DNA from: Prostheceraeus crozeri
Lineage: Eukaryota; Platyhelminthes; Polycladida; Euryleptidae
Direction of reading: 5' to 3'
NCBI GenBank assembly: GCA_907163375.1
Contig: CAJQUW010005326.1
Coordinates: 124,001-188,000, forward strand
Length of the DNA stretch: 64,000 nt
The stretch's first letter is position 1; every line of letters starts with the position of its first letter. Position numbers and translations under genes: made by a program. The notes under the pieces were generated by a model. That model ran no database searches. It was given only the letters and a program-made list of their open reading frames with translations, and was not told the DNA's origin. Positions 13,075-45,915 of the stretch are shown in pieces.

Positions 13075-13521
13075 CCATGCACTGAAAGTATAACAAGTGT
13101 TCAAGGAGGAATCGTAGGAAATCCCAGTTACGATGAAATTGTTTGCTCCTCTTATGCTGGCTGGATCTTCGGTTTATCCACACAGCAGCAGGTGAAGGCT
13201 GTAGGATCTGCTACAGTCGATCCCAGCCAAGCTGCAAGACTGGCTCAACTGAAAGCAGAGATCGAGGAACTTCAGGGTAAAGTGATGAAGGAGAGGGAGA
13301 AGTACCACTCTTCCTCGTCATCATCCAAAGCCGTTTCTGCTGTTCCGCGGCTGCATGTGGAGGACAGATTCCAGTTGAACCCCGAGGAGGCGGCTTATGT
13401 CCTTTGTATTGAATGTCAAGCTCCTATCGACAATGTCTTAGCACAGGCTGATGTCCCTGTCGATCTCTTAGACGTGGATAAAAATTCAGCGGTGGTTTCC
13501 TACAGTCAATGCAACCCAGAG
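13075..13521 (+). CDS. BBS7: BBS7 exon d (propeller end, coiled coil, GAE start)
   Basis: This exon encodes 149 residues (in-window 229-377). It opens with PCTESITSVQGG and SYDEIVCSSYAGWIFGLST, the last propeller blade. A coiled coil follows around ARLAQLKAEIEELQGKVMKE, then a serine-rich run, then the start of the gamma-adaptin-ear-like domain with IDNVLAQADVPVDLLDVDKN. In BBSome structures the BBS7 coiled coil pairs with that of BBS2; that partner is family knowledge, not seen here. The acceptor is TTTTAG and the donor GTAAGA, in phase 0 at both ends. Confidence 0.97.
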
Positions 13522-16500
13522 GTAAGATACTGTGTGGAAAGTTATTTGTTTAGTAGAATATTTTCATTTCCATTTTTCAGAAATATACCATTGTCTCTAC
13601 ATCATTACTCAATATCAAAACAGTATTTAAATCCTACTTTTCTGAAAATTTTTTGCTTGAACATGCCAACTATCCATGTTCCTTGTCATGTTTAATGCTA
13701 CAATGAACATGTGATGGAATGTCGTTATGAGAACAATTTAACTAATTGATGACACTTTTCCTCACAAAAATCATTTCTCTTTCAAAGTCCTATTTTCATG
13801 GATTAGATAGATTTTGATATCATGCAGCGCCATCGCAACGGCTCAGATTTCCGAAAAGAATATTTTTATGAACTGGACATTGCAAATCTTTTTTCTTATT
13901 ATAATATTCTGAAATACTTCTCGACAAGTTTGTAGGAAATGATCGATAAGTATATAGGTGCTTGGCCTTGTCAATATGAAGGGTAGACAATAAGACATAA
14001 TGACAACTAACCAATATCTCAGAGCCATGGCGAACCAATCATCTTGCTTTCATATCGCGTTAATAGCTCAGCTAGTAGAGCGATGGCCTAGATTGCGAGA
14101 GGTTGGTAGTTGGTTCTGTCAAGACGCGAAATCATTTTCCGTCTTGAATTAATGATGTATCTCATCATTCACTTTTGAGTGGTTTTATAATGATTGTGAA
14201 GAATATGGTCGAAAGAAAACAGGTCAAAATTTCTGCTTGTGTTTGTCTTTGAATATATACATAATTATTGTCTCAGTTTGCATTGATCTGGAGCAGAAAT
14301 TCATACAAATTATAAAGTAATATTTTGGGTGGTTTCTAGAGCAGCATCGTTCCAAATTTTCTAGAGTACCAAAATTGTGAGTGTTTTTGGATTACATTCT
14401 TAATTTTAGTAAATGTTTTGATTGTGATAAAACAGAGTGCGTTCTATAATTAATTTTAATGGTCGGATATTAGTTTTCGACATAATTCGGCGAAGTCATA
14501 GCTGGTTTAGAGTATTGGTTAGTTCTCAATTAATAATTTCCTGTCTGAAGTTGTTGCAATCATCCGCACAAATTAATTTGCTAAAATTCTAACACAAATA
14601 ATTCGTCAATTGGGAGTTACCTATTTCAAAATATCAGTAGTACCGTGTAATCATTAATATTGTATTCGGAATTATTCATTGTAAATTATCTAATTTTGTC
14701 TACGCAGTATCTTCTTTCTTTACGTCTATGTAGTGCGGTGTGCTTGTAAATTTATCCAAATTTCAACATTTTGTGTTTAGCTGTTGAGTATGTCAGTGAA
14801 AACTCGCCCGATAAAATCTACCCATTAGATTTTGCAGATATGTGTACGTTTTTTGAGTATAAGTGATTCATTTTTTGATTTCATTCCGTAAGGCTTAGAA
14901 ATAAGTTATTAGTGCTTTAAACAGCTATCTATGTATTTTGAATATTGTATAACTTAGTAAATGCGATGATTTAGAAAATACAATTCTGATGATGGCCACT
15001 TCAGTTATTATTTCCATGGATTACAGGCATCAGCGGTTGGAAAACACTTTAATGCATAACAACATTACATTTCTGAATTCTCCATGGTCATTGATATATA
15101 GAGCTCCTGAGATCAATGAGCATTCTTCTAAATGATTTCTTGGTTCCTTTCCAAGTCCAGAAACCATTGATTCATTAGATGCATTCTGCTCTCAACTCTT
15201 TAATACTGAAATTATATCGAATGTTTTAATGAAAGCTGAATTGGTTGATGAATGTGAAGAAAGTTTTTCAAAGCTGTGCTAAACAAGCCAGCGAATTTGA
15301 GGTATTCTTCTTCTTTGAATTTTTGGGGAATCTTGTAAAATTTTCCTGGAGTTTAGATATCCTCATTCAAGCGATCGAAAACTTTTTGTTGGAGATGTTA
15401 TTTCTTTCTACTCGGCGGCGGCCAATTATTTGACCAATTATTGAAATGATTAATAACTAATCCAAATTCAAACGACTTCTTTCATCATTGCGATAATTGG
15501 AATGAACTGAATTCTTCAAACGACTAAATTTTTATACAAAGATAATAAAGGATGTTAAAGTTATTTTCGCATATTTTCATGATGTATGGATAGTATTTAT
15601 TCGTCTCGCCTGAGTTGAAGAGCTCTCAGAGTGGGAACTGGGCCAGAATTTTCAGCTTGGAAAAGAAAATACCCAGCTAGCAGAAAATACTATACTAGCT
15701 TGGAAAGAAATACCCAGATTTCTTGGTCATTCTTCAACCGAGCTCGACCCGTGAGTTTCAGTTATCAGGCATAGGCGTTGCCCAGGTCCGTCTTATTTCA
15801 AACTAGTGACCATTTGGATATACTGGCAAATTGTTCTTGCATAATCAATTATCATATTTCAATATCTATTCAAGATATTTTCTCGTTCAGAATAATGGCA
15901 TATGAGCATTCATGAGCTGATGCACATAGTCAGCAAACAAAGTCATTTTTTATGAGTATAGAAGACCTACTTAGATGTGTCATCATAATGACTTCATTGC
16001 TCTTCAAACAAGACACAGAAGTGGTGAGTATACAAGAAAAAGAGTGACAGAAAAAATATAAGCATGCGAACTCAGCTAACTTCATGAATGATGATTTGAA
16101 ACGTTGGGTCAGAATTTTGATTTTCCAATGAGATGTGCCATAGCGAGGTGAGTAGCATCTCGAAGAAATTTTATCATAGATTATTTGAAGTGGATGTTGA
16201 GGGTGTAATGCCATTTTGGCTAGACGATGGACCATAAAACCGCAATGTTCAAAGTTGAGTTAATATTCGCAAATATGCTAACGCATGGCGCGTGTGCTTT
16301 TTAAACCGTAGTTATGACTCGCGCCCGCAGAGGAAATTCCCATGTTGTCGATATCTTCTCCCGCCAATAAAATACTGTACTTCGAAAATCATACATCGCT
16401 GAGCTCGCTTTTCAGATGACTTGTTCTGAACGTGTCAGTCTTTAAATCCATTAATAGAATAATGATAAGGGAATGGATTATGCGTATTCATCGGGGAAGC

Positions 16501-19719: not shown

Positions 19720-20752
19720 ATGAGTGCCGAGTTGACAGCGGAACAGCGCGCTGTCATCGTTGACCGCATCAATTCGGGACAGTCGCAACGACAAGTGGCT
19801 GCAGCTCTTGGGGTCAGTCGAGGAGCAGTGGAGAAGGCTATCTCAATCTATCGCACCACCGGCGATTACAAGTCACGTCCTCGGAGTGGCAGACCTCGAG
19901 CAACTACTGACCGAGATGACCGAGTGCTTGTTCGGATGAGTCTGAACGTCGGGCGGTTAACGGCTCCCGATATTCGGAAATCTTTGTCCAGCGATTACGG
20001 CGTAGATATCACCACGCGCACTGTCCAGAATCGACTAATGGAAGGCGGTCTGTATGGGCGAGTTGATCGCCAAAAGCCCCTAATCTCCGACAAGAACCAT
20101 ACTGCCCTACTGACCTGGGCCAGAGAGCATCTTAGCTGGAGCGACCAACAATGGGAGCGAGTTTTGTGGTCGGACGAATCCAAGTTCAACCTGTTTGGCA
20201 ATGATGGACAAGTCATTGTTCGTCTTCGCGCTGGTGAAGAAATGAACCCTGCCTGTCTCGTGCAGACCGTGAAGCACGGAGGTGGCAGCATCATGGTATG
20301 GGCTAACATGTCGGCACTCGGACCAGGCCCTATCCGGCTGGTGGACGGCGTAATGGACCAATACCAATATCGAAATATACTGGAAGAGACCATGCTACCA
20401 TGTTTGCAACATGGTGCAGCAAACCATGTTTGCCAATGACCAATGGATCTTTCCGCATGACAATGATCCAAAACACACGGTCAGGTCAGTCAGGCAATGG
20501 ATCAATGACCAGAGTTTTCAGTGTCTTCGGTGTCCGGCCCAGTCACCGGACCTCAACCCGATTGAGCATCTTTGGCAAGTGGTGGACTCTCCGGTCAAAA
20601 GTCAGCGCCCCTCTAACAAAGAAGAACTGTTTCGGGTGGTGAGTGAAGCATGGAGCAATATCACGGTCGATCGCTGTAGCACCTTGGTCCAGTGCATGAG
20701 GCGTCGTTGTCAGGCTGTTATTGAAGCCAAGGGTGGTCCAACCAAGTACTGA
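19720..20752 (+). pseudogene. Tc1-like DD34E transposase, frameshifted
   Basis: The first frame (19720-20439) opens with ATG and carries a paired-type helix-turn-helix DNA-binding region (QSQRQVAAALGVSRGAVEKA). A GRPR hook follows (RPRSGRPRATTDR), and then the first catalytic aspartate in VLWSDESKFNLFG. The second frame (to 20752) holds FPHDNDPKHT with the second aspartate and SPDLNPIEHLWQ with the glutamate, 34 residues apart. Catalytic residues of a cut-and-paste DDE transposase are therefore all present. The switch from frame 1 to frame 2 falls between about 20395 and 20440, where CCATGTTTGC occurs twice, so this copy should not make a full-length enzyme unless by frameshifting. Total length is about 340 residues, normal for the family. 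Confidence 0.93.
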
Positions 20753-22809: not shown

Positions 22810-22846
22810 TCAGTGAGTGAGTGAGTGAGTGATAGTCAGTGAGTGA
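22810..22846. repeat. GTGA microsatellite
   Basis: Repeated GTGA units, interrupted once by TAGTCA, lie just upstream of the acceptor of the next BBS7 exon. Confidence 0.85.
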
Positions 22847-22874
22847 TATTCAGCTTGAATTTATTTATTTTCAG

Positions 22875-23380
22875 ACCACTTAATCAGCTGACATTGACTG
22901 GCGCCTTTTCACAAGCGGAGATGCACGCGTGGGTGGCGTTCTGTTTACCTGAAACGCCGGAACGTGTCCCCAACGAGGATCAAGTCCGCTTGACCTTCGA
23001 TTCCACCTTTCTGGGAACTCAGTTGGAATGCCTGTACCGGAAGGGCGAAGCAAAGTTCCGATCTGACAATCTCTCCACCATCTCCATCCTCAAAGACGTA
23101 TTGACTAAGGAAGCAACTAAGCGTAAAATCGTGCTCAACATTAGCTTCGACATCAATGATGCCAGCGTGGCTCATACACTGCGTCTCATCCATCCCAAAA
23201 TGGAGTCATTGCTTCTACTCGCGAAGAAAGTTCAGCTCATCGAACCCCTCCGTGAACTGAAACTGAATGAAGCAGAATCCGGAAGCTTCCTTAGTAAAGA
23301 GTACACTGAAATTCTCGACAATGCTGATCAATTACAAGCAGAATTCAAGCGACAACCTTGTCATCTCGAGCGACTCTACG
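22875..23380 (+). CDS. BBS7: BBS7 exon f (platform and C-terminal helices)
   Basis: The largest exon in the window encodes in-window residues 445-613. It starts by completing an arginine codon and then reads [19 protein letters not shown]. Landmarks include [58 protein letters not shown] and CHLERLYG. These cover the alpha/beta platform and the helical C-terminal part that contacts the rest of the BBSome. The acceptor is TTTTCAG and the donor GTAAGA; reading through the donor gives a spurious extension that ends at 23433. One base (G) carries over to the last exon. Confidence 0.97.
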
Positions 23381-25200
23381 GTAAGACGATGGGAGACGAT
23401 CTGTTTGATGTTCTACTTGCCCATAGCCCTTGACAAAGCGTGTAAGCGCGAAACGTCGGGCGAGTTAAATATTTTTCTTTAATATTAATTTTACCAACCA
23501 TTACATGTTCAAGGAGACGTGCGTGCGCAGAATTAGACAGCTCGTCTCTTCTTCTGTTTGACTAGAAAGGAAGCATTGGAACATGTAACGCTAATGAAAT
23601 GGCACAATCTGCTGATATGATATCACAGCAATCGAACAAGGAGCAATCAGTTCAACAATAAGCACGCCAAATTGTGCGATGTTTCAGTGGCTGTTGTCAA
23701 CAGGATCATACAGCAAAGAGACACAGACGATGTCAAGCTCCACAGAGAATTTTGTGAACGTTTTTCGTGTGCCTGCTATCTTTTTTAATAATGATCAGAA
23801 GGAGGAACAGTATCGTGAAAACTTCTGCGCAATGATCTAAATTCTTTGAATCTGAAGGAATCGTGGCGATCGGAGCATTTTGAAGGAATTCACAACCTTT
23901 TTGCAAGCCACGCACGACTGTTTTTCCATCTTTTTAAGGCATTAAAATATTCTTTTTGCCCACTTAGTAAGTTTCTGCATGTGCCATCGTTTTAAATCAG
24001 TTAGCAATTCCAGCAAAGTGACACCTAAAATCAACTCTAAGGATGAGTCAACAAGTAATTCTTGTTTGCCGTTTGACTTCGTATCCAACACATCATTGAC
24101 TCAGATCATATGTACCGTGGTATTCTGGGCTGTTTTAGATTTAGCATCGATCGAGAAATGTGTAAACATTAAGAAGCAGTGAATAATTTGCTATCAAAAG
24201 TCAAATCGTTTATTTTTAATTTGGAAAACGCAATTCAAACATGTGATGAGTGATAAAATGGCTATATACAATGAAAGAGAGATGGAGGATGAGATGTACA
24301 AGTAAGTGAAATGATAATACGGATGGGAAGAAATGGCCGATCCATTCGTTTCATTTATATTTCATTCGTTTGAGCATAGCAGCCCCATCCAGGGATTTGG
24401 TATTGTTGCAAACAAGCTGTGGACGCGTCCCGAATTTCAGCCAAAGAAGTGGCAATCGAGCATTCAGATGACATTTTGCATTGTTTTATTTGACAGCAAC
24501 ATCTACTGAATGACGATTTCCACACATTAGGTGAAGTACAAATGATAGTTGATTACCAGTACAGCTGAATAGACAGACGGGTAGCTGAAATGCCAAGTTC
24601 GAGATATGAGCGAATCTTTGAGGAGAAGAAAGCTTGCCGGTCATTGATTCTCACAGCTCGAATTGGTAGTTGGTATGTCGGAAAAGGTGAGTCGTTCCGT
24701 CTAGAATACGGTCTGTGGTCAGCAACTGGGCCGGAGCGTGCCTGTAGCTCTGTTTGAGGCCAACATTTATCGTTTGATAAAACGGAAATAATTAGTTGAG
24801 TTAACGTTTTGTTTCCAACATGATTACATCTGTGTGAGAGTTTCGATTTTAGACATTGCTTTTCTTCAAGGAAAACTCAAGTAAATGCAGCAACTGTTGA
24901 AGGTTTGTTACTGAAGATTAATTACCGCTCTTCCGAAGTAACGTAGTTGATAATTGATTTCTTCCAATTATCTATCTCAAGTTACAGTAGGTACTATTGG
25001 GAATCATCAAAACTTTACCAAATTTTGTTTTATGTTAAGAACCTATTTTCATGAAGTCTCAACTGTCATTTAGATTCCTTGTTATTGGAATGTGTGCGTC
25101 TCCGTGTGGTGGGCGTTCGACATAGTTTGTGACGAAATCGGATGAGTGGCGCTGTGATCTGACTGAATTAACTTTTTAGGGATTGATCATCACGTCTATA

Positions 25201-34864: not shown

Positions 34865-35313
34865 GAATTGTTTCTGAGCCTGTACTTTGGTCGCAATGTT
34901 TTCAAAAGTGTGAGTGTACATGATGAAGACTTAAAAAGGAGTCTACACTTTGATGTGACAAGTACTCACACCCAACTTGATAGCATCTGGTTTGGTTACA
35001 ATCTAATCAGTTCAAAGTGGCAGAGAACCAAAGATTTTTCTATGTGTCATCATTAAATTGTTTACCCATAGACTTCTAAATTTCTCTGGAATTGTTTCTG
35101 AGCCTGTACTTTGGTCGCATTGTTTTCAAAAGTGTGAGTGTACATGATGAAGACTTAAAAAGGAGTCTACACTTTGATGTGACAAGTACTCACACCCAAC
35201 TTGATAGCATCTGGTTTGGTTACAATCTAATCAGTTCAAAGTGGCAGAGAACCAAAGATTTTTCTATGTGTCATCATTAAATTGTTTACCCATAGACTTC
35301 TAAATTTCTCTGG
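34865..35313. repeat. 224-bp tandem duplication
   Basis: Unit 1 is 34865-35088 and unit 2 is 35089-35313, differing by one base that I noticed (A/T in GGTCGCAATG versus GGTCGCATTG). The right end of each unit includes the first 23-24 bases of the terminal repeat of the neighbouring THAP element, so the duplication happened after that element inserted, or is an assembly artefact. Confidence 0.92.
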
Positions 35314-35563
35314 ACAGATAGGTGAGCAAAATTTGAAATCATTTTATACATGTTCAAGCCAACCAACATTTGTGTTACAGAAGATAGAATTTTGCAGCTA
35401 ATTGAAGTGATAAATTACTATTTTAAAATAATCTCCTGTGCGATTCAATCGAATGCAAAATACCAAGCAAATATACCGCAGCTGGTTTTCAACCGAAATG
35501 CAATGATGGTGTAGCATCAATACATTCCTCTGCATAACAAGGAAATTTGAATCTGTAGTTGCA

Positions 35564-35760
35564 TCGAGTTAGTAGAAAGTATTTAATCCCAACTAAACAT
35601 TCCGTCTTGTGTAACCTTCACTTCCACGAACCTGACTTTAATGCCACCACGAAGGACATAGATTATTATCGCATGCAAAGAAGGAAAACTAAAAAATGAA
35701 AAAGCATTATCTAAAGGACAGTGCAACCAAAATTCCTTTATCTGTCTAGATGCTTTCCAA
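35564..35760 (+). pseudogene. THAP-type zinc finger relic of the transposase
   Basis: The frame reads RVSRKYLIPTKHSVLCNLHF and then HEPDFN before a stop at 35697. The block S-V-L-C-N-L-H-F-x-E-x-D-F is the second half (C...H) of the C2CH THAP finger, a DNA-binding domain. About 30 residues later, in another frame, LKDSATKIPLS stands where THAP domains have L-K-x-x-A-V-P-T. The first cysteines are not clear because upstream frames hold stops. Confidence 0.6.
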
Positions 35761-36454
35761 ACAACTACAAACCGCGATCCGGTATGGCCACGTTTTCAAG
35801 TAAATGTTCTACCAATGGAAACACATTCGGAAGATTCTTTGGTATGACAATTTTCTCTAAAATCTACAAGGAAATCATCTCATCTGGGTTTGTGATATCT
35901 CAAAGCGATCATGAGCTAAAAATGGCGATCATGAGTATACATCTTCCCTTCAGCGTCGTCGCATCATTGACTGTCGAAAATTCTGTGAATATTCGCATCT
36001 ATCACGTAGAGAGAGAAATCCATTCCAACAAGCACATATCATCTATCATAGCATCTATCACAAGTTTTCCAAAGTTATCAATCGGATGACTTTTGTATAA
36101 TATCTGGATGACCAGCCACTAATAGAAATTCGAAATTGGATTCAATTATGTAATACTTGGGAAAGTTGATGGTGAAGCCGAAGTCAACGGGCGGAAGACT
36201 AACGCTAGATCCACCCATATCATTGAACATGGTAAGGGACAATTTGGAGTGGAAAAGAGAAGATGCAGGTTCCCACATTATAAATGTGCTGAGATCAAGA
36301 GGAACAGAAACGGAGATCCTTCTTTAATTTCATGAAAGCAATGATGATGGACACAATAAGCATTCCCAACCTGATCAGTTACTTCTATACGGAGGTGTGA
36401 ACAGTTATCAGGCGATCTGACCTGTGATGGAGGCTCTTCTGAGACCAATGACCA

Positions 36455-37009
36455 ATGCTCGGAAAAGCACAGCCAGATCACATTGAGAAGGGTTTTAGCT
36501 GGATACGTCAAATGACTGGTGCATATTATTTTATCTCCATGCGTCACCGCGCAGAGATTGACAAGAAGATACATACAATTTCTTTATTGAAGTTTTCCGG
36601 ACTCAGTCTCAGAAATACTGATAACAAAATATCATGCAGTCAACCACAGAAGATGAAATGTACACAGGATGTAAATATTTGCATGCAAAGACTGATTTCA
36701 ATATGCATCCTAATAATTGAGATGTCAGTGCTGCGTGTTGCCTTTCACTTCAGAAATGTAAAAAAATGTGATTCCTGTTGTGAATGCACTGTCAGAAATA
36801 TTAAATCGGGAATGTTCGACATCCTTGAAGCTGCAAAACTGTTGAATAAAATTTATCATGGTGTCTTTCCTCCAGACGTATCTGTGCTTCAACCGTGCAT
36901 TCTTTGCTGGAAGGTATTCTATGAGATCAAGTTGTCTAAGAAAATAGCTTCTTACTTTAAAAATGAAAAAAAGGTGCTCAGAATATCGATATATCATTTC
37001 TCCTGGTGA
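36455..37009 (+). CDS. unassigned 184-residue frame in THAP element
   Basis: This open frame lies inside the THAP element on the same strand as the finger. It includes a cysteine-rich stretch VKKCDSCCECTV followed by a helical-looking part, GMFDILEAAKLLNKIYHGVF. I do not recognise it. It may be the degraded C-terminal part of the element's transposase or simply a chance frame; overlapping minus-strand frames of similar length weaken the case. Confidence 0.3.
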   Translation: MLGKAQPDHIEKGFSWIRQMTGAYYFISMRHRAEIDKKIHTISLLKFSGLSLRNTDNKISCSQPQKMKCTQDVNICMQRLISICILIIEMSVLRVAFHFRNVKKCDSCCECTVRNIKSGMFDILEAAKLLNKIYHGVFPPDVSVLQPCILCWKVFYEIKLSKKIASYFKNEKKVLRISIYHFSW

Positions 37010-37404
37010 CTTTTTCGCTTACTTCTTCGCAAAATGTTGCTGTACACATGGACATGAATCAGATTGCCGAATTTCAATTAAATATTTTAACAACATGTGC
37101 TAGAAATACGTTCATAACATCGAAAAATTGTTCATGAAAAAATCGCAAAATTAGTAAAAAAAAACGAGGTCTAGCACATGAGTTTAACGCATAAACATGC
37201 AGTCCCATGCTTCTTAACTCCCAATGTATATAAATATACATACATACTGTTCTTTACCGGCATTGTGCTGGCAATACGTTCTCTACAATTTGAAAACGCT
37301 TGATGACTCTCTATTTGTAAGGTAGTCAAATTGATGATTGCTGACCTGATCATGTATGATGCCAATTTCAACCTATCTGTCCAGAGAAATTTAGAAGTCT
37401 ATGG

Positions 37405-37674
37405 TTTACCTATCTCTGTGGAAGGAGGTCCAGATATCTATCATTGTCTACAATTATAGATATCTCGACCTCTTTGACTTTGTGAATTCACGCATCTCGG
37501 ATTTCTACATAGAAATTGCTGCATAACATTCATAGTCTATACGTCTTACACATCCTATATGGATTTTATGAAGATCACATCATCTTATGGCTTCAAGATA
37601 GGGAAGTGACTTTATTTTTTTCACATGAAAATACAATGATTTCCAAAGACTAGCTCTCCGGGGTATGTCAGGCA
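37405..37674. other. upstream region of the 1365-codon gene
   Basis: It holds a short inverted repeat (AGATATCTATCATTG ... ATTATAGATATCT) at 37431-37466 and a T-rich run at 37609-37620. An AG at 37670-37671 could serve as an acceptor just before the start codon. An in-frame TAG at 37651-37653 closes the frame upstream. No convincing core promoter is seen. Confidence 0.5.
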
Positions 37675-40600
37675 ATGTCGCAAGTACAACAACTCGACTA
37701 CACATTCTTCAATGAATTCATCATACAATTGAGAGATGACGTTCTTACAACTTTACATGAGGATCGCAGAATAGCAGCAATAGAATCAAAAACGCGTACA
37801 AAAGTGGTTGTAACACGCCGTACCCTAAATCGCAGACATTATGGCAATTATTGGATAAAATACATAATAATTCGAATTTATAGTGAAGATATTATGCGAA
37901 TACATCGATGTATTTGTCTTTTGATGAAAGGCGTACCAGTTCTTCAAGGACTCAGACCGTATGAAAACAAAGCTGCTGTTAAAGTTGTTGGCAATGCATT
38001 TACTCCAGACAATGCTAAGTTATATTATGAAAGCCAGAGATTAAAAAGAACCACATCATATTTTGCTGGTCTACCCCTGGAATCTCCTTATCAACCGGAA
38101 CCTACACGTCCTGTTGATGCCACACCTTGGAGAAATGCAAATTCAGAGAAGTTGGTTGGCACTCATCATCCTGATTTATTGAATAAAGAAATGATGGTTC
38201 GTCATTATTTAGGGAACGAGAGCGAGAGAACGAGTGTCAGATTAGATTATGATTCTTCAGAAATGATGAATGACTTTGACGTCGCATCAAAATGTTACAG
38301 CAAGTGTTACGGGTTTTCGCAGGATACAACTCTATTGGAAAATAGACAAAGATCACTTTCAAGTCCGAGCGGTCTAAATTCTATGCCAGGTAAAGGAGTT
38401 GAGCAACCCAGAACATATTCACCATTTAAAAACACCGACGTTCCCACCGTGCCGTTACTTGACTTTGAATGTGGAGATCATGTGGATAGCATGATGAGCA
38501 ACTCACATGGAATGGATAGGCAACTGACTTATGATAATGACATCAGCAACCAATGGGATGATAATACATTCAGAACCTCGTGTGATTTGTTCCAAGAGAC
38601 ACAGCAAATTAGAGGATGCTTTACCCCTAGAACAAGAAGCAGGAGCTATAATACATGTGTGCTTCAACCGAATGCCTATCATCGACATTTCAATAACGCA
38701 TCCACTTATAGAAACATTTCACGGAGCAAGTATATGCTGAATTTTCTACATTCCGATGAACAGCAAATGATTCCAAGGCAAATGGCGGAAGAGATAGAGC
38801 AATTAGATTATGAGTCAGATAATAAGCACCTGTATTCAGAATATTCATCACAAACAGAATTTGTTGACCAGAAACATATAACTATTGTTGAAGAAGAATT
38901 CGATGATGTTAAGCAAGATCATTATGAATCGATCAATTTCTCGATCAACTCGCCCGAGAGACAAGTCTTGCAGCCAATATATTCGTATCAAGCATGCGTT
39001 GACTCAAAAAAGGCGGTTTACTGGAAGCAGCCACCTTCTGAATTGCAACACCCGGTGTGCAAAGCGAAACAGTCAACGATGTGTTCTGTGGATGATTATC
39101 ATAATTCAAAAGAGCAATTGGCCGCTTCAAACAAGACTATGCCTAATCAGGGTACATGTAAATCTGGTCAAAGGATGAAAATCTTGAATGGAAAGCTGCT
39201 GTTCAAAGAATCTTGTATGAAGTTGTCTAACATTCAACAATCAATAACAAATTCCCACAGAAGACTTTCACAATTGACTCACGCATCATCTGCTCCGCTG
39301 AAGCAAACTTGCGGTGCTGTGCAATCATCTAATGACATAAGGGAAGCAAAAACTGATATAATTCAGTCAATTAATTCGGCTCAATCACTGCATGCACCAG
39401 ATGAACCATTTGACCCGATTGCAGCTTCCAGTGATTTACCAGAGAAACAATGTGACACAATTCACGAATCCTGCGATTTGCAGGAGAAAAATGCTGACTT
39501 ACTTCATGCTTCCATCAATTTTGTGGAGAAGCCATTTGACTTGATTCAAGCATCGACCATTGAGATGGAAAAACCATCTCAGCTGATGCAACCATCGTCC
39601 AATGAATTGGAAAAACCAATAGATTTAAAAGAAGGAAACAGCAATTTACCAGAGAAACCATCTTATGTATTTCAACCATCGAACACTTTACCAGACAAAC
39701 TTTCGTGTGTTAATCAAGCACCCGCTAATTTGCCAGAGAAGCCTTCAGATTTGGTGCAGACATCTTCTTGTGTTATTGAAGCACCTGTCAATGTTTCACA
39801 GAAATCAACTGATTTGATCCAGGATACAACCGAGTTACCTAAAAAAGCTCTTGATGTCATGAAAAAATCTGCCGGTTTGAAACAGAATCCTTCTTATATA
39901 ATTCAACCCACCAATGATTTGACGCAGAAGCCATCTGAGTTGATTCCGCCACCAAATGTTGATATATTAGAATATCCATCTGGAGTGATTCAATCTTTGA
40001 ATGGATCCCTGGAAAAGCGATCAGATTTGATTCAAGCATCTAGTGTCATTTTGAGAAAACCACCTATGGTGCTTCAAGCGGCTTCCATTTCATCTATTCT
40101 GCCGGTAAAATCATCTGATTCACTTGAAAAACCATTTGACACAATTCAACCCTCAAGCAACACGCAAGAAAAACTAACTGCATTGTCCCCTGAATCACTA
40201 GAAAAGGCATCTGATTCTTCTCAACCAGGAACATCTATGATTACCCATGGAAAGGAGCCATCCATCGACTCAGATGACAAAACGTTCAATTCAATCCAGG
40301 TTTTAACAGAGGTGAAGAAGAAAAACATTGATGATGCTCCAAAAGTAATTGATGTGCAAGAAAATCTATCATTTGCCGAAAAGAAGCAATCTCCCAGTTC
40401 ACAGAACAAGTTAACTGATAAAAATAAATTACCAACAGAACCAAACGATAAAGCTGATAAAATTGTGTTGTCTATATACACATATCCAAAGCAGAGAGCA
40501 ACTAATTCGGAAGAGAAGCCACCTTTTTCAAATAAACTAGCCATTGATTCACAAGAGAAACAGCAAGCTTCAACGCGTTCACAGCTTTGTGATATTCTCA

Positions 40601-41772
40601 ATTCTTCTTTATCACCACAACATAAAAAGACTTTTTCATCAAAGCAACCACTCGATAATTCTCAGAAAGCATCAAAACGTGATGAATCAACATCTAATTT
40701 ACAACAGGCGCAACCACAATCAAACCAATCGACTTCAAAAGTGCAGGAATTACTGTCTGATTTGAAAAATAGAAAGAGCGAACATTGTTCGTTATCAACA
40801 GAAAAACCAAAAAGCTACCATCAGTTGACCTTTATTGAAAAATCTGCACATGCACGAGATCATGATCAATTCGTGAATAAGTACAAATGCAGAAATCGAC
40901 CACAATATTGGAAATGCAGGTCTTGTGACTCCGGTGACTCCACAAACAATACCAGAGCTTCTTCATCAAAGTCAAATGACAAAATTTGGAAAATTGATTC
41001 ACCTGATTTGGAGCAAAATAAACCAGGGCACTCTTATGATGATTTGCATAATAACGAAGACACCAGACAGCACTTTTCAATTAAAATGGGTAGGGAACAA
41101 TCACATTCTCAAGATAGCAACGATCATAAGTGTGTTGCTGAAGCCAGTGTTAAGAATAGTAATAAGCACGATGATATGGATATTAGGTCCATTCTAAAGA
41201 ACATTCCTTGCCATTCTCAGAATCAATGTAATAATATCGTATGTCATGATGATACCAGCAATATACAAGAGAAAATAAATCAAACGCTTGAGCAGAACAG
41301 TGAACAACCTGAAACTAATCTATTTCCTGACATCACTGATATGTCGAATATTAAGATCTCGAAAGAATCATATCCAAAAGTGTTTACTAATATTTTACAC
41401 TCTATTAACCGATTGTATGACGGCAATGAGACTTCAGCACATAATCAGTGTGGAGATGGATTCAAAGACCAAATAAATCCGGAAAACCCCTTTCCATCGC
41501 TGTATCATTATCTTAGTGATGAAGTTAAGATTTCACTTATGAATGAATTTAGTTTTTCTGATCCTGACAAATTTTCTGAAAAAGTGAAATTATGCTTCTC
41601 TAATGATGAAGAGGAATCCTTGAGAAATTTCTACTCATTTCACATAAATGAGGTGAGACGAACAGTTAGGACAAAATCGTTTCCTGTGGGCCATGAAGAT
41701 TTACATGACACAACTCCTGATGGAGAGACTTTGCGAAATCATAATGCGTATAATATTTCTGAAATATCATAA
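37675..41772 (+). CDS. 1365-residue uncharacterised protein, KH-like N-terminus
   Basis: One uninterrupted frame from ATG to TAA, far longer than chance in AT-rich DNA. Residues about 20-95 (AAIESKTRTKVVVTRR, then YIIIRIYSEDIMRIHRCICL) follow the helix-strand-strand-helix pattern of a KH RNA-binding domain, but the GxxG loop appears replaced by HEDR; this is inference. Residues 100-570 and 830-1280 are polar and probably disordered. Residues about 574-830 form a 14-residue repeat array. Near residue 1069 lies a CX8CX2C cluster (CRNRPQYWKCRSC). Residues about 1285-1345 (NPFPSLYHYLSDEVKISLMN onward) look folded and helical. An in-frame stop 24 bases upstream supports the start, unless the acceptor-like AG at 37670-37671 makes this a large 3' exon. 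No transposase, polymerase or enzyme motif was found. Confidence 0.8.
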   Translation: MSQVQQLDYTFFNEFIIQLRDDVLTTLHEDRRIAAIESKTRTKVVVTRRTLNRRHYGNYWIKYIIIRIYSEDIMRIHRCICLLMKGVPVLQGLRPYENKAAVKVVGNAFTPDNAKLYYESQRLKRTTSYFAGLPLESPYQPEPTRPVDATPWRNANSEKLVGTHHPDLLNKEMMVRHYLGNESERTSVRLDYDSSEMMNDFDVASKCYSKCYGFSQDTTLLENRQRSLSSPSGLNSMPGKGVEQPRTYSPFKNTDVPTVPLLDFECGDHVDSMMSNSHGMDRQLTYDNDISNQWDDNTFRTSCDLFQETQQIRGCFTPRTRSRSYNTCVLQPNAYHRHFNNASTYRNISRSKYMLNFLHSDEQQMIPRQMAEEIEQLDYESDNKHLYSEYSSQTEFVDQKHITIVEEEFDDVKQDHYESINFSINSPERQVLQPIYSYQACVDSKKAVYWKQPPSELQHPVCKAKQSTMCSVDDYHNSKEQLAASNKTMPNQGTCKSGQRMKILNGKLLFKESCMKLSNIQQSITNSHRRLSQLTHASSAPLKQTCGAVQSSNDIREAKTDIIQSINSAQSLHAPDEPFDPIAASSDLPEKQCDTIHESCDLQEKNADLLHASINFVEKPFDLIQASTIEMEKPSQLMQPSSNELEKPIDLKEGNSNLPEKPSYVFQPSNTLPDKLSCVNQAPANLPEKPSDLVQTSSCVIEAPVNVSQKSTDLIQDTTELPKKALDVMKKSAGLKQNPSYIIQPTNDLTQKPSELIPPPNVDILEYPSGVIQSLNGSLEKRSDLIQASSVILRKPPMVLQAASISSILPVKSSDSLEKPFDTIQPSSNTQEKLTALSPESLEKASDSSQPGTSMITHGKEPSIDSDDKTFNSIQVLTEVKKKNIDDAPKVIDVQENLSFAEKKQSPSSQNKLTDKNKLPTEPNDKADKIVLSIYTYPKQRATNSEEKPPFSNKLAIDSQEKQQASTRSQLCDILNSSLSPQHKKTFSSKQPLDNSQKASKRDESTSNLQQAQPQSNQSTSKVQELLSDLKNRKSEHCSLSTEKPKSYHQLTFIEKSAHARDHDQFVNKYKCRNRPQYWKCRSCDSGDSTNNTRASSSKSNDKIWKIDSPDLEQNKPGHSYDDLHNNEDTRQHFSIKMGREQSHSQDSNDHKCVAEASVKNSNKHDDMDIRSILKNIPCHSQNQCNNIVCHDDTSNIQEKINQTLEQNSEQPETNLFPDITDMSNIKISKESYPKVFTNILHSINRLYDGNETSAHNQCGDGFKDQINPENPFPSLYHYLSDEVKISLMNEFSFSDPDKFSEKVKLCFSNDEEESLRNFYSFHINEVRRTVRTKSFPVGHEDLHDTTPDGETLRNHNAYNISEIS
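39396..40150 (+). repeat. array of 14-residue (42-bp) coding repeats
   Basis: Within the large protein about 15 degenerate units follow the consensus LPEKPSDLIQASSN. Examples are LQEKNADLLHASIN, FVEKPFDLIQASTI, EMEKPSQLMQPSSN, LPEKPSYVFQPSNT and SLEKRSDLIQASSV. Most adjacent units are exactly 42 bases apart, with a few longer ones. Nucleotide identity between units is lower than protein-pattern similarity, so the pattern appears to be old and kept at protein level. Confidence 0.85.
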
Positions 41773-43102: not shown

Positions 43103-45179
43103 TTATTGCTTCACATGGTTACAGTCGGTGAACGCATTACAAAATTTTATAAATGAACAACGAAAGCGTTCAGTTTTTGCGAATGGTGGACATAAAGTGC
43201 ACTGAGAACGAATTAGTCGACAATTATGTGGTTGGAACATAACAGACAAGGGGTGAGAAGACGACCCCTCAATTGATGAAATCATTTTGTAACACATCCT
43301 TGTGGCAACTTCGATGAATGAAGGAAACTCATTCGAATTGATAATCCTAAACACTCGCTTCTCCAAACGCATTATTTTATTAAATAGATAGTCCGGTGCA
43401 TTGCAATAAACTGGATGAGCAAATAAAAATATGGAGCGAATAAAAGCGACATATGATCTGTACATAAGGGTAGCAGGGCAACCCGATCTCTGAAGATTGT
43501 ACATGACATAAAGTCTCTTCCTCGCTTTCATAACCAAATCATCCAAATACAAATTCCACTTCATGTCACTAGAAAAAGTAACGCCCAAAATGTGAATGTA
43601 TGAGACCTGACACAAGGCATTGCCATCTGGAAAATAAACATGACAAAACCAGATTCTTTTTTGTTACAATGTCCATTACAAAACACTTATCTTTATTGAG
43701 AGGCAAGCCAATATCGGAGGACCATCTATCAATGCTATTAAACTCTTGCTGGAGATTATCTTCAGAGCTGTCTCGAATAAAATGAAGGAAGGTAGCATCA
43801 TCGGCATAGCGCACCATGAAGGTATTCCAACAGACAGCAGAAAGCGAATCAGTAGCTAAGCAGAACAATACTGGCCCAATTACACTTCCTTGAGGGACAC
43901 CACTTGGTACACAACTTCAATAAGATGTCACACCACCGATAAATTTTACTCGCTGTCTTCGACAAGACAAGAAACTATACACCCATCTGACTACAAAAAG
44001 TTAGGCAAATCAAACTTGACACAAGCTGAAACAATAGTAGAGTGCAGCAATTTATCAAAAGCCTTAGAAAAATCAGTTGTCATAATTCTAACAGCGCCAG
44101 ACTTTTTATCCAAAAATTCAATAACTTTGTGATATGCTAGAATGACAGCCCGGGGAATATAGGCAAATTGACAAGGGTCCACTCTGTGCTTGATAACAGG
44201 AAAAATAAATTTTTGACACAATTTTCTCCAAAATTTTTGACAAAATAGGCAAAATAGAGATAGGGCGAAAGTGAGATGCAATCGTCGGTTTCTCACATTT
44301 AGGAACAGGTGTAACATTAGACATCTTCAAGCATAGAGGAACACAGCCTTCACTCAATGAACGGTTGAATAGATGTGTAATAGCAGGACAAAGAAAATCA
44401 GCACAGTCTCTGATCACCCATGGGGGAACACCATCAGGACCCGCACTTTTATTGGAAGTAGTACTCAACATCCGAAAAACTTCGGCTTCCGTCAAAATAG
44501 GGATGGTCTCATTCCAATTACTTGAAAAGTAAGCCTCCAAAGCACCAGACTCACTCTGAAAATTCGAAGTGAAGAAGGCATTCAGATCACTGACCGAGAA
44601 TTCATGATGATGACTATTGTTTCTTGTGTAATTGCCTAGAACACGCAGTGATTTCCAAAGTTTCTTATTATCTCCAGTCGATGCTGCCGATTCCATAAAC
44701 TTGAATTTGAGATGACGAATATGATTATTGACTTCTTTACGTAGCCGTTTGTATTTTGCAAATTGTCCGCTTGAATAGGCCCGATCACGATCATCAATGA
44801 GAATTTTAAGTGACAACTTCATCCATGGAGGATCATCAGATCGAACTCTAACCATTCGATGCGGAAAGAAAAAATCGAATAGATGATAAATGCTGTCACA
44901 TAACAAGGCTGCGGCATCATTCAAATCGCCCGTGCTCTGAATCAAGCCAAGCCAATCATAGCTGGACATAACCGAATAAAAGGCCGAACTGTTGGCACGA
45001 GACATTTTTCTTACCATCATTTTTGAGGTAGTAGGCCGAGTATTTTGTGCTGGTTTCCAAACAACGACGACATGATCTGAGCAACCAATCGGAGGCTTGG
45101 ACGTACGTAGGCTTGATGCTCGTAGAAAAGTTGGTGAATATTTGATCCAAGCAATGACCTCCACGAGTCGGAAAGTCAA
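43103..45179 (-). pseudogene. LINE reverse transcriptase domain
   Basis: After the SDH box, frames that change several times give a linker (DPPWMKLSLK, KYKRLRKEVN). Then come the reverse transcriptase blocks KSAGPDGVPPWVI, FRPISILPILSKILEKI, MTTDFSKAFDKLLHS (motif A), a VPQGSVIGPV-like block near 43880, VRYADDATFLHF (motif C with both aspartates) and ILGVTFSSDMKWN. The C-terminal part, MKARKRLYVMYNLQR to CNHVKQ, ends in TAA inside the AATAAA. Shifts fall near 44210, 43990-43870 and 43615. Confidence 0.9.
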
Positions 45180-45915
45180 TCAAGAAAGTGAGACGGCACA
45201 TACTAGAAATTGTTGAGAACTGATGGCGAAGATCATTAAAATCACCACATAGAATTACACGCAGGTTGACCTCGAAACGTAGGAAACCATAATCAACTAC
45301 TTCAGCAATGCAAGTCATAGCAGAATCATTTGCAGCTGTATCATTCCAGAAAGGATGGTATAAGCAAACAAGAAGCAGATGGAAATTTTGCACAAATAGG
45401 ACAAGGAATTCCGACTCACAATTAGATAGCGATGGTATTTCACGATGGTCAATAGGGACACAGTCCAAAATAGAATTGGTATAACACACGATTCCGCCAC
45501 CCTTGCGATCAAGACGGTCACGACGATGAATACAAAAACCCGAGACAGAAAGAGCGTCATTAGGGATGAGATGATCAAGCCATGATTCAGTAAACACACA
45601 AATGTCAGGTCGACAGGATAAAAGAAGCTGATTGACTTCATCTTGTTTATTGATAATGGATCGGACATTTGAAAGAACTACCGTCTTTGGATATGCATAC
45701 CTTCGCTTTCCGGGCCGCCGTTGCTTTCTTGTCAAAGTGGTAGGTACAGGAACTAGACATTTGGAAGAAGATTTTTTATTATTGTACTTTTCAACAGGAA
45801 GTCTCCTCTTTGACATTCTAACCAGGATGTGCTGCACATATATTCCAAAATAGTAAAGTCGTCTTCTCACTTTTCTGCTGACACATACACATTGCTTTCC
45901 ACCAAGTTGCAACAA
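44956..45915 (-). pseudogene. LINE endonuclease domain
   Basis: The frame begins with a basic stretch (MSKRRLPVEKYNNKKSSSK) and then an apurinic-type endonuclease: NVRSIINKQDEVNQLLL, ICVFTESWLD with the catalytic glutamate, RLDRKGGGIVCYT, VILCGDFNDLRHQF and GGHCLDQIFTN. The closing SDH box (PIGCSDHVVVV) is found only in the next frame, near 45075, so a frameshift lies between about 45120 and 45090. This enzyme nicks the target DNA in target-primed reverse transcription. Confidence 0.88.

Follow-up and report, generated by a model that had tools for sequence, protein, structure and literature searches.

What does an uninterrupted reading frame of 4.1 kb encode in the genome of the polyclad flatworm Prostheceraeus crozeri (hereafter P. 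crozieri), and how did it arise? Such a frame is unusual in this species because its exons average 467 bp and its introns 5,263 bp (PMC9469890). The frame lies at 37675–41772 on the forward strand of the window analyzed here, a stretch of 64,000 nucleotides from contig CAJQUW010005326.1. The G+C content of the window was approximately 0.37, and that published for the assembly is 37.64% (PMC9469890). Translation yielded 1365 residues and one terminal stop, within a stop-to-stop extent of 1372 codons (37654–41769); the second-longest frame of the window has 353 codons. The remaining five frames over the same stretch contained 65 to 158 stops, and the chance probability of 1365 stop-free codons at the local base composition was approximately 3e-42. 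These data bore out the long uninterrupted frame described in an earlier reading of this DNA made without database searches (hereafter, the sequence-only reading). The AT-rich setting, the AG near 37670, and the upstream in-frame stop (TAG at 37651, separated by seven codons from the ATG) noted there were likewise present. The 1365-codon frame is an intact single-exon gene.

To place this gene, we searched the whole genome (2,048,925,868 bases in 14,165 contigs) and repeated the search with each family member as the query. The family closed at five places, encoding proteins of 105, 426, 609, 1365, and 2994 aa, a count that omits two sub-threshold head matches with stops (C3434 and C6386; E 0.36 and 0.85). 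All five members were single open frames, 5499 codons in sum, which showed a five-gene family of intact single-exon genes in one animal genome. Two of them, both on C1001, lie 16 kb apart in opposite orientation. In every member, an ATG directly preceded the shared block, an in-frame stop was located 1–7 codons upstream of that ATG, and detectable homology started within 14 residues of it. Because of the ATG and the in-frame stop, translation would start at these positions without requiring a coding exon further upstream; 5′ exons without coding sequence may still exist. The single exon proposed by the sequence-only reading is thus supported across the family. AATAAA or ATTAAA occurred within 500 nt downstream in four of the five members (AATAAA in two), a weak sign of gene ends. 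The repeat region also matched C2901 and C3575 (E 3e-4 to 5e-4); these matches were set aside as low complexity.

The N-terminal 90–100 residues, approximately, are common to all five members. The shared extent reached approximately 180 residues between the window protein and the 609-aa protein and approximately 250 between the 609- and 426-aa proteins; the window and 2994-aa members did not match each other directly and were joined through other members. The 105-residue paralogue consists almost solely of the shared head. None of the five matched a Pfam family over the cut-off, and the whole window protein drew no Pfam row at an E threshold of 1. With the threshold raised to 10, its N- and C-terminal pieces gave nothing, and one middle piece gave a single chance match below the cut-off. 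A PDB sequence search returned no match for the whole protein or its N-terminus, and the absence of a recognised family was thereby confirmed in both databases. Sub-cut-off Pfam rows in the paralogues (FAM70, IDEAL, Toprim_2, MalQ_N, rve_3, and CFAP65 Ig) and the best PDB sequence rows (PRP22, DNA polymerase IV, and MEH1) were judged to be chance.

The heads showed codon-level constraint. Among the ten pairs of heads, the proportion of synonymous differences (pS) was 0.68–0.86, near saturation, and that of non-synonymous differences (pN) was 0.43–0.57. The pN/pS ratio was below all 300 codon-pairing shuffles in eight pairs; the two exceptional pairs, at 0.79 and 0.84, both include the window gene. 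Copies of a 14-residue repeat in the window protein gave a pN/pS of 0.64, a value that leans low as the copies were picked by eye with imperfect ones omitted, vs. a mean of 0.98 and a minimum of 0.90 when random pieces of that open reading frame (ORF) were sampled 200 times.

These data fit an origin from an old founder without introns that was then duplicated as DNA. The sequence-only reading had suggested a retrocopy; a recent one is unsupported because the genome yielded no parent with several exons. An ancient retrogene family is possible, if rather unlikely: a single reverse transcription of the spliced mRNA of a KH protein would have been followed by the gain of a promoter and, later, by duplication as intronless DNA. 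Each of the five copies is one open frame, in a genome with the long introns and short exons cited above, and retroelements make up 10.19% of it (PMC9469890), but the genome searches yielded no intron-bearing parent of the family, and neither a poly(A) tract nor a target-site duplication was demonstrated at the genes or systematically sought there.

Next, we focused on the N-terminal head, which the sequence-only reading had described as folded-looking and as KH-like without GxxG. The AlphaFold2 (AF2) single-sequence model of residues 6–97 showed the β-α-α-β-β-α order of a KH type I domain (β1 13–17, α1 21–28, α2 31–39, β2 43–53, β3 59–69, and α3 73–84), albeit at low confidence (mean predicted local distance difference test [pLDDT] 54.7; 38.9 for residues 1–137). 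When a profile of the five members was compared by hhalign with KH domains of the same genome, the core scored 19.92 (P 0.0017) in the KH register, exceeding 300 of 300 shuffles (≤15.1) and an RRM decoy (9.5). The position of the GxxG loop was occupied by LHED in the window protein and by FIND, FRTN, LHDD, and FITD in the others, with glycine in none of the five and an acidic residue in four; N/T-D-P occurred there in two paralogues.

Several results limit the KH assignment. The hhalign probability was just 15% for the KH comparison, and three of the five members did not rise above the best shuffle when taken singly. No head had a Pfam KH row, PF00013 (KH_1) included, at E values of 10 or less; KH_1 matched 42 places in the genome, the window ORF not among them, and a PDB sequence search with the five-member profile returned no KH domain. 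The result, weak but repeated, suggests that the N-terminus is probably a KH domain. Profile comparison and the low-confidence model support a highly diverged KH type I domain that has other residues, acidic in four of the five members, in place of the GxxG loop; they also lend some support to what the sequence-only reading said of the N-terminus.

The tails differ from the heads. Four of the five members carry polar tails of variable length that are almost unrelated to one another, and two of these tails contain tandem repeats of their own. Detectable homology between the window and 609-aa proteins ended near residues 178–180. Past residue 130, one further tail match was found (E 0.004–0.006), over a motif of 16 residues (G-I/V-T-K-Y...) that occurs in the 609- and 426-aa members; other tail-versus-tail rows beyond that residue had E values of at least 0.5. 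The repeat of the window protein comprised 16 clean copies within residues 576–831, and autocorrelation peaked at lags of 14, 28, and 42 (0.53 at lag 14 vs. a maximum of -0.22 in 500 shuffles), with direct repeats mostly 42 nt apart. The tail of the 2994-aa paralogue contains a different tandem repeat of 52 residues. The C-terminus of the window protein (residues 1200–1365) had no Pfam match and three chance PDB sequence rows; these 166 residues had no paralogue and matched one other place in the genome (E 0.9), which contains a stop.

Based on these features, we favour, at somewhat under even chance, an intronless five-gene family in which a GxxG-less KH head acts as a protein-binding or dimerising module, attached to a scaffold tail, in a germline setting. 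The head would no longer grip single-stranded RNA in the classical manner and may instead bind proteins or dimerise like OOEP, FILIA, and KHNYN KH1. Many weak contact sites could come from the long disordered repeat tail, and the protein might serve as the scaffold of a cytoplasmic assembly. We infer this molecular function and the germline expression; germline or early embryo would be the likeliest setting, a guess made because the genes lack introns, their tails change rapidly, and the family has expanded. Classical RNA binding is made less likely by the loss of GxxG. In IMP1 KH2, a GDDG change blocks contact between the loop and the RNA backbone and abolishes RNA binding (PMC6486635). KHNYN KH1 lacks GxxG and has a proline kink instead, within a two-KH domain for which no RNA binding was detected and a protein-binding role was proposed (PMC11997328).

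An RNA-associated regulator, the role suggested by the sequence-only reading, appears unlikely but deserves weight; the head would then bind RNA despite the lost GxxG by using basic strands and an extension, with partners recruited by the tail. FILIA, an atypical KH protein that is unpredictable from sequence, dimerises, and has 10 repeats of 23 residues, binds RNA by means of a required N-terminal extension without sequence resemblance to classical KH domains (PMC3261892). By analogy, FILIA lends this alternative some likelihood. The net charge of +7 over residues 46–90 of the window protein points the same way, but GxxG is gone in all five paralogues and an acidic residue stands there in four.

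It is more doubtful still that the head adopts another two-layer α/β fold, such as a ferredoxin-like or PII-like one, with a superficial resemblance to KH. The top Foldseek rows were mostly PII and S6 folds (E 0.07–0.15), the top VIA row was TsrL, and confidence in the AF2 model was low. However, profile comparison chose the KH register rather than that of RRM, and among the 50 Foldseek rows listed FMRP KH1-KH2 was highest in query TM-score (0.52) and probability (0.85). Ferredoxin-like folds have the element order β-α-β-β-α-β, from which the order in the model differs.

The GxxG-less KH head with a scaffold tail was then compared with known KH systems. By architecture, the closest analogue would be FILIA/KHDC3, which also combines an atypical KH domain with tandem repeats. 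It belongs to a mammalian oocyte and embryo family with KHDC1, DPPA5, and OOEP/FLOPED, which resembles the flatworm family in its atypical N-terminal KH domain, the repeat tail of FILIA, and the presence of several genes; unlike the latter, FILIA is eutherian, and it has 346 aa vs. 105–2994 aa here and a repeat length of 23 vs. 14 and 52 (PMC3261892). None of FILIA, OOEP, DPPA5, and KHDC1 was named among the nine PDB sequences matched by the five-member profile at E up to 10, the presence of FILIA-N in the PDB copy searched being unchecked. The KH1 of the extended-diKH domain of KHNYN/N4BP1 is likewise a type I domain without GxxG, its proline kink recalling the N/T-D-P of two flatworm paralogues (PMC11997328). 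KHNYN, an endoribonuclease, contains two KH modules, whereas each flatworm member has one such module and lacks any enzyme match over the cut-off. With canonical KH type I domains (vigilin, PCBP, hnRNP K, FUBP, and IGF2BP), the heads share the register of the helix, β2, β3, and the final helix and, in the model, the order of secondary structure, but they lack both GxxG and a Pfam KH row. Literature searches brought up no paper on polyclad KH domains or on intronless flatworm KH genes, and the titles and abstract openings covered named no such flatworm family. The head is probably a diverged variant of a known KH fold, and the family is seen in one genome only. Were the KH assignment and the germline role true, KH domains would have shed the RNA-gripping loop, acquired tails of repeats, and multiplied in two unrelated lineages, of which this is the second. 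The flatworm family would offer an independent case for comparison with the mammalian subcortical maternal complex family and for asking why KH scaffolds are prone to such a route. Annotation based on Pfam overlooks families of this kind, with zero calls over the cut-off for these five genes.

Mobile elements surround the gene, and the end of one lies approximately 260 bp before the ATG in the window. Its end motif, TTAGAAGTCYATGR in the 14-base form, occurred at 2551 places in the genome vs. 113 for the reversed control, and in several mobile-repeat contexts among the 20 places at the top of the listing. AGAAGTCYATG was present on the sense strand 178–282 bp upstream of the ATG in three of the five family genes, a pattern noticed post hoc. 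The same genomic counts weakened its candidacy as a conserved family promoter, as it is the end of mobile repeats; insertion preference or a shared promoter piece is possible. Shared upstream words of the five genes were not above control (one 9-mer in at least three genes vs. a control mean of 0.86). It is a long shot that a flatworm lineage independently built a maternal scaffold system like that of FILIA/OOEP, from an expanded set of intronless genes that join a GxxG-less KH head to rapidly evolving repeat tails reaching 3000 residues, the mobile element whose end motif lies near three of these genes having perhaps brought them into germline expression. A transposable-element ORF or a neutral open frame is very improbable, as the transposon-rich surroundings, the upstream element, and one sub-cut-off integrase core row in the 2994-aa tail (rve_3, E 0.041, 14.1 bits vs. 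a cut-off of 26.5) stand against just five diverged copies in 2.05 Gb, all of them open and under codon-level constraint, and no transposase, reverse transcriptase, or capsid match over the cut-off in any member. The match to a known transposon ORF that the sequence-only reading had allowed for was thus not found over the Pfam cut-off.

Coordinates of the gene, its parts, its paralogues, and the upstream elements (positions in the window unless a contig or locus is given)
Feature	Position	Strand	Basis and remarks
Single-exon ORF, 1365 aa + TAA	37675..41772	+	Translation, frame statistics
KH-like core, residues 13–84	37711..37926	+	AF2 single-sequence model and hhalign to own-genome KH domains; putative
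LHED, residues 27–30, at the place of the GxxG loop	37753..37764	+	Alignments of paralogues
Post-KH motif F-T-P-D-N-x-x-L-Y-Y-x-x-Q, residues 109–121	37999..38037	+	Alignment; common to the 609-aa and partly the 426-aa paralogue
Second shared stretch SPY...TPW....SEK, residues 137–159	38083..38151	+	Also in the 609-aa paralogue
Long polar tail	38152..41769	+	No family match; hardly any similarity to paralogue tails
Degenerate 14-residue tandem repeat, consensus approximately EKPSDLIQASSNLP	39400..40167	+	Autocorrelation, codon analysis, direct repeats
Possible poly(A) signal AATAAA	41854..41859	+	82 nt past the stop codon; consensus match only
Upstream mobile element	35281..37413	.	43-nt inverted arms at 35281–35323 and 37371–37413
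AGAAGTCYATG in other loci	L015 4960–4970	-	Motif search
AGAAGTCYATG in other loci	L017 635–645 and 667–677	+	Motif search
609-aa paralogue	C1001:399942-401765	-	Genome search
426-aa paralogue	C1001:417845-419122	+	Genome search
105-aa paralogue	C9217:962815-963129 (L027 1474–1791)	-	Genome search
2994-aa paralogue, from own ATG	C9794 frame 75375–84362; also C9794:75381-84365 (L022 5382 to L023 6366)	+	Genome search

Further repeats and genes were observed in the window. A 224-bp unit in two perfect tandem copies (34865–35312) repeats part of the left arm of the upstream element, and a 26-nt inverted repeat with a 2-nt loop and 88% complementarity (37422–37475) lies between this element and the ATG. 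A fragment of a Tc-type transposase was located at 19720–20439 on the forward strand. On the reverse strand, 44118–45915 contained a frame matching endonuclease/exonuclease; the frame that follows, of 353 codons, overlaps it and has no Pfam match at E 0.01, an arrangement suggestive of a non-LTR (long terminal repeat) element. Exons of BBS7 encoding the GAE, platform, and hairpin domains were found on the same strand at 13192–13692 and 22843–23430. Elsewhere in the assembly, a mitochondrial contig (L033 1501–2847, reverse strand) carried an rRNA-like stretch, COX2, COX1, and another rRNA-like stretch on one strand, the names other than COX1 being judged by eye. The COX1 frame contains eight internal TGA codons, requiring TGA to be read as Trp, and is plausible under the echinoderm/flatworm code (code 9; AGA as Ser, AAA as Asn, and ATA as Ile), which points to a flatworm. 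At position 200 (DRNFNTTFF), asparagine presumably fits better than lysine.

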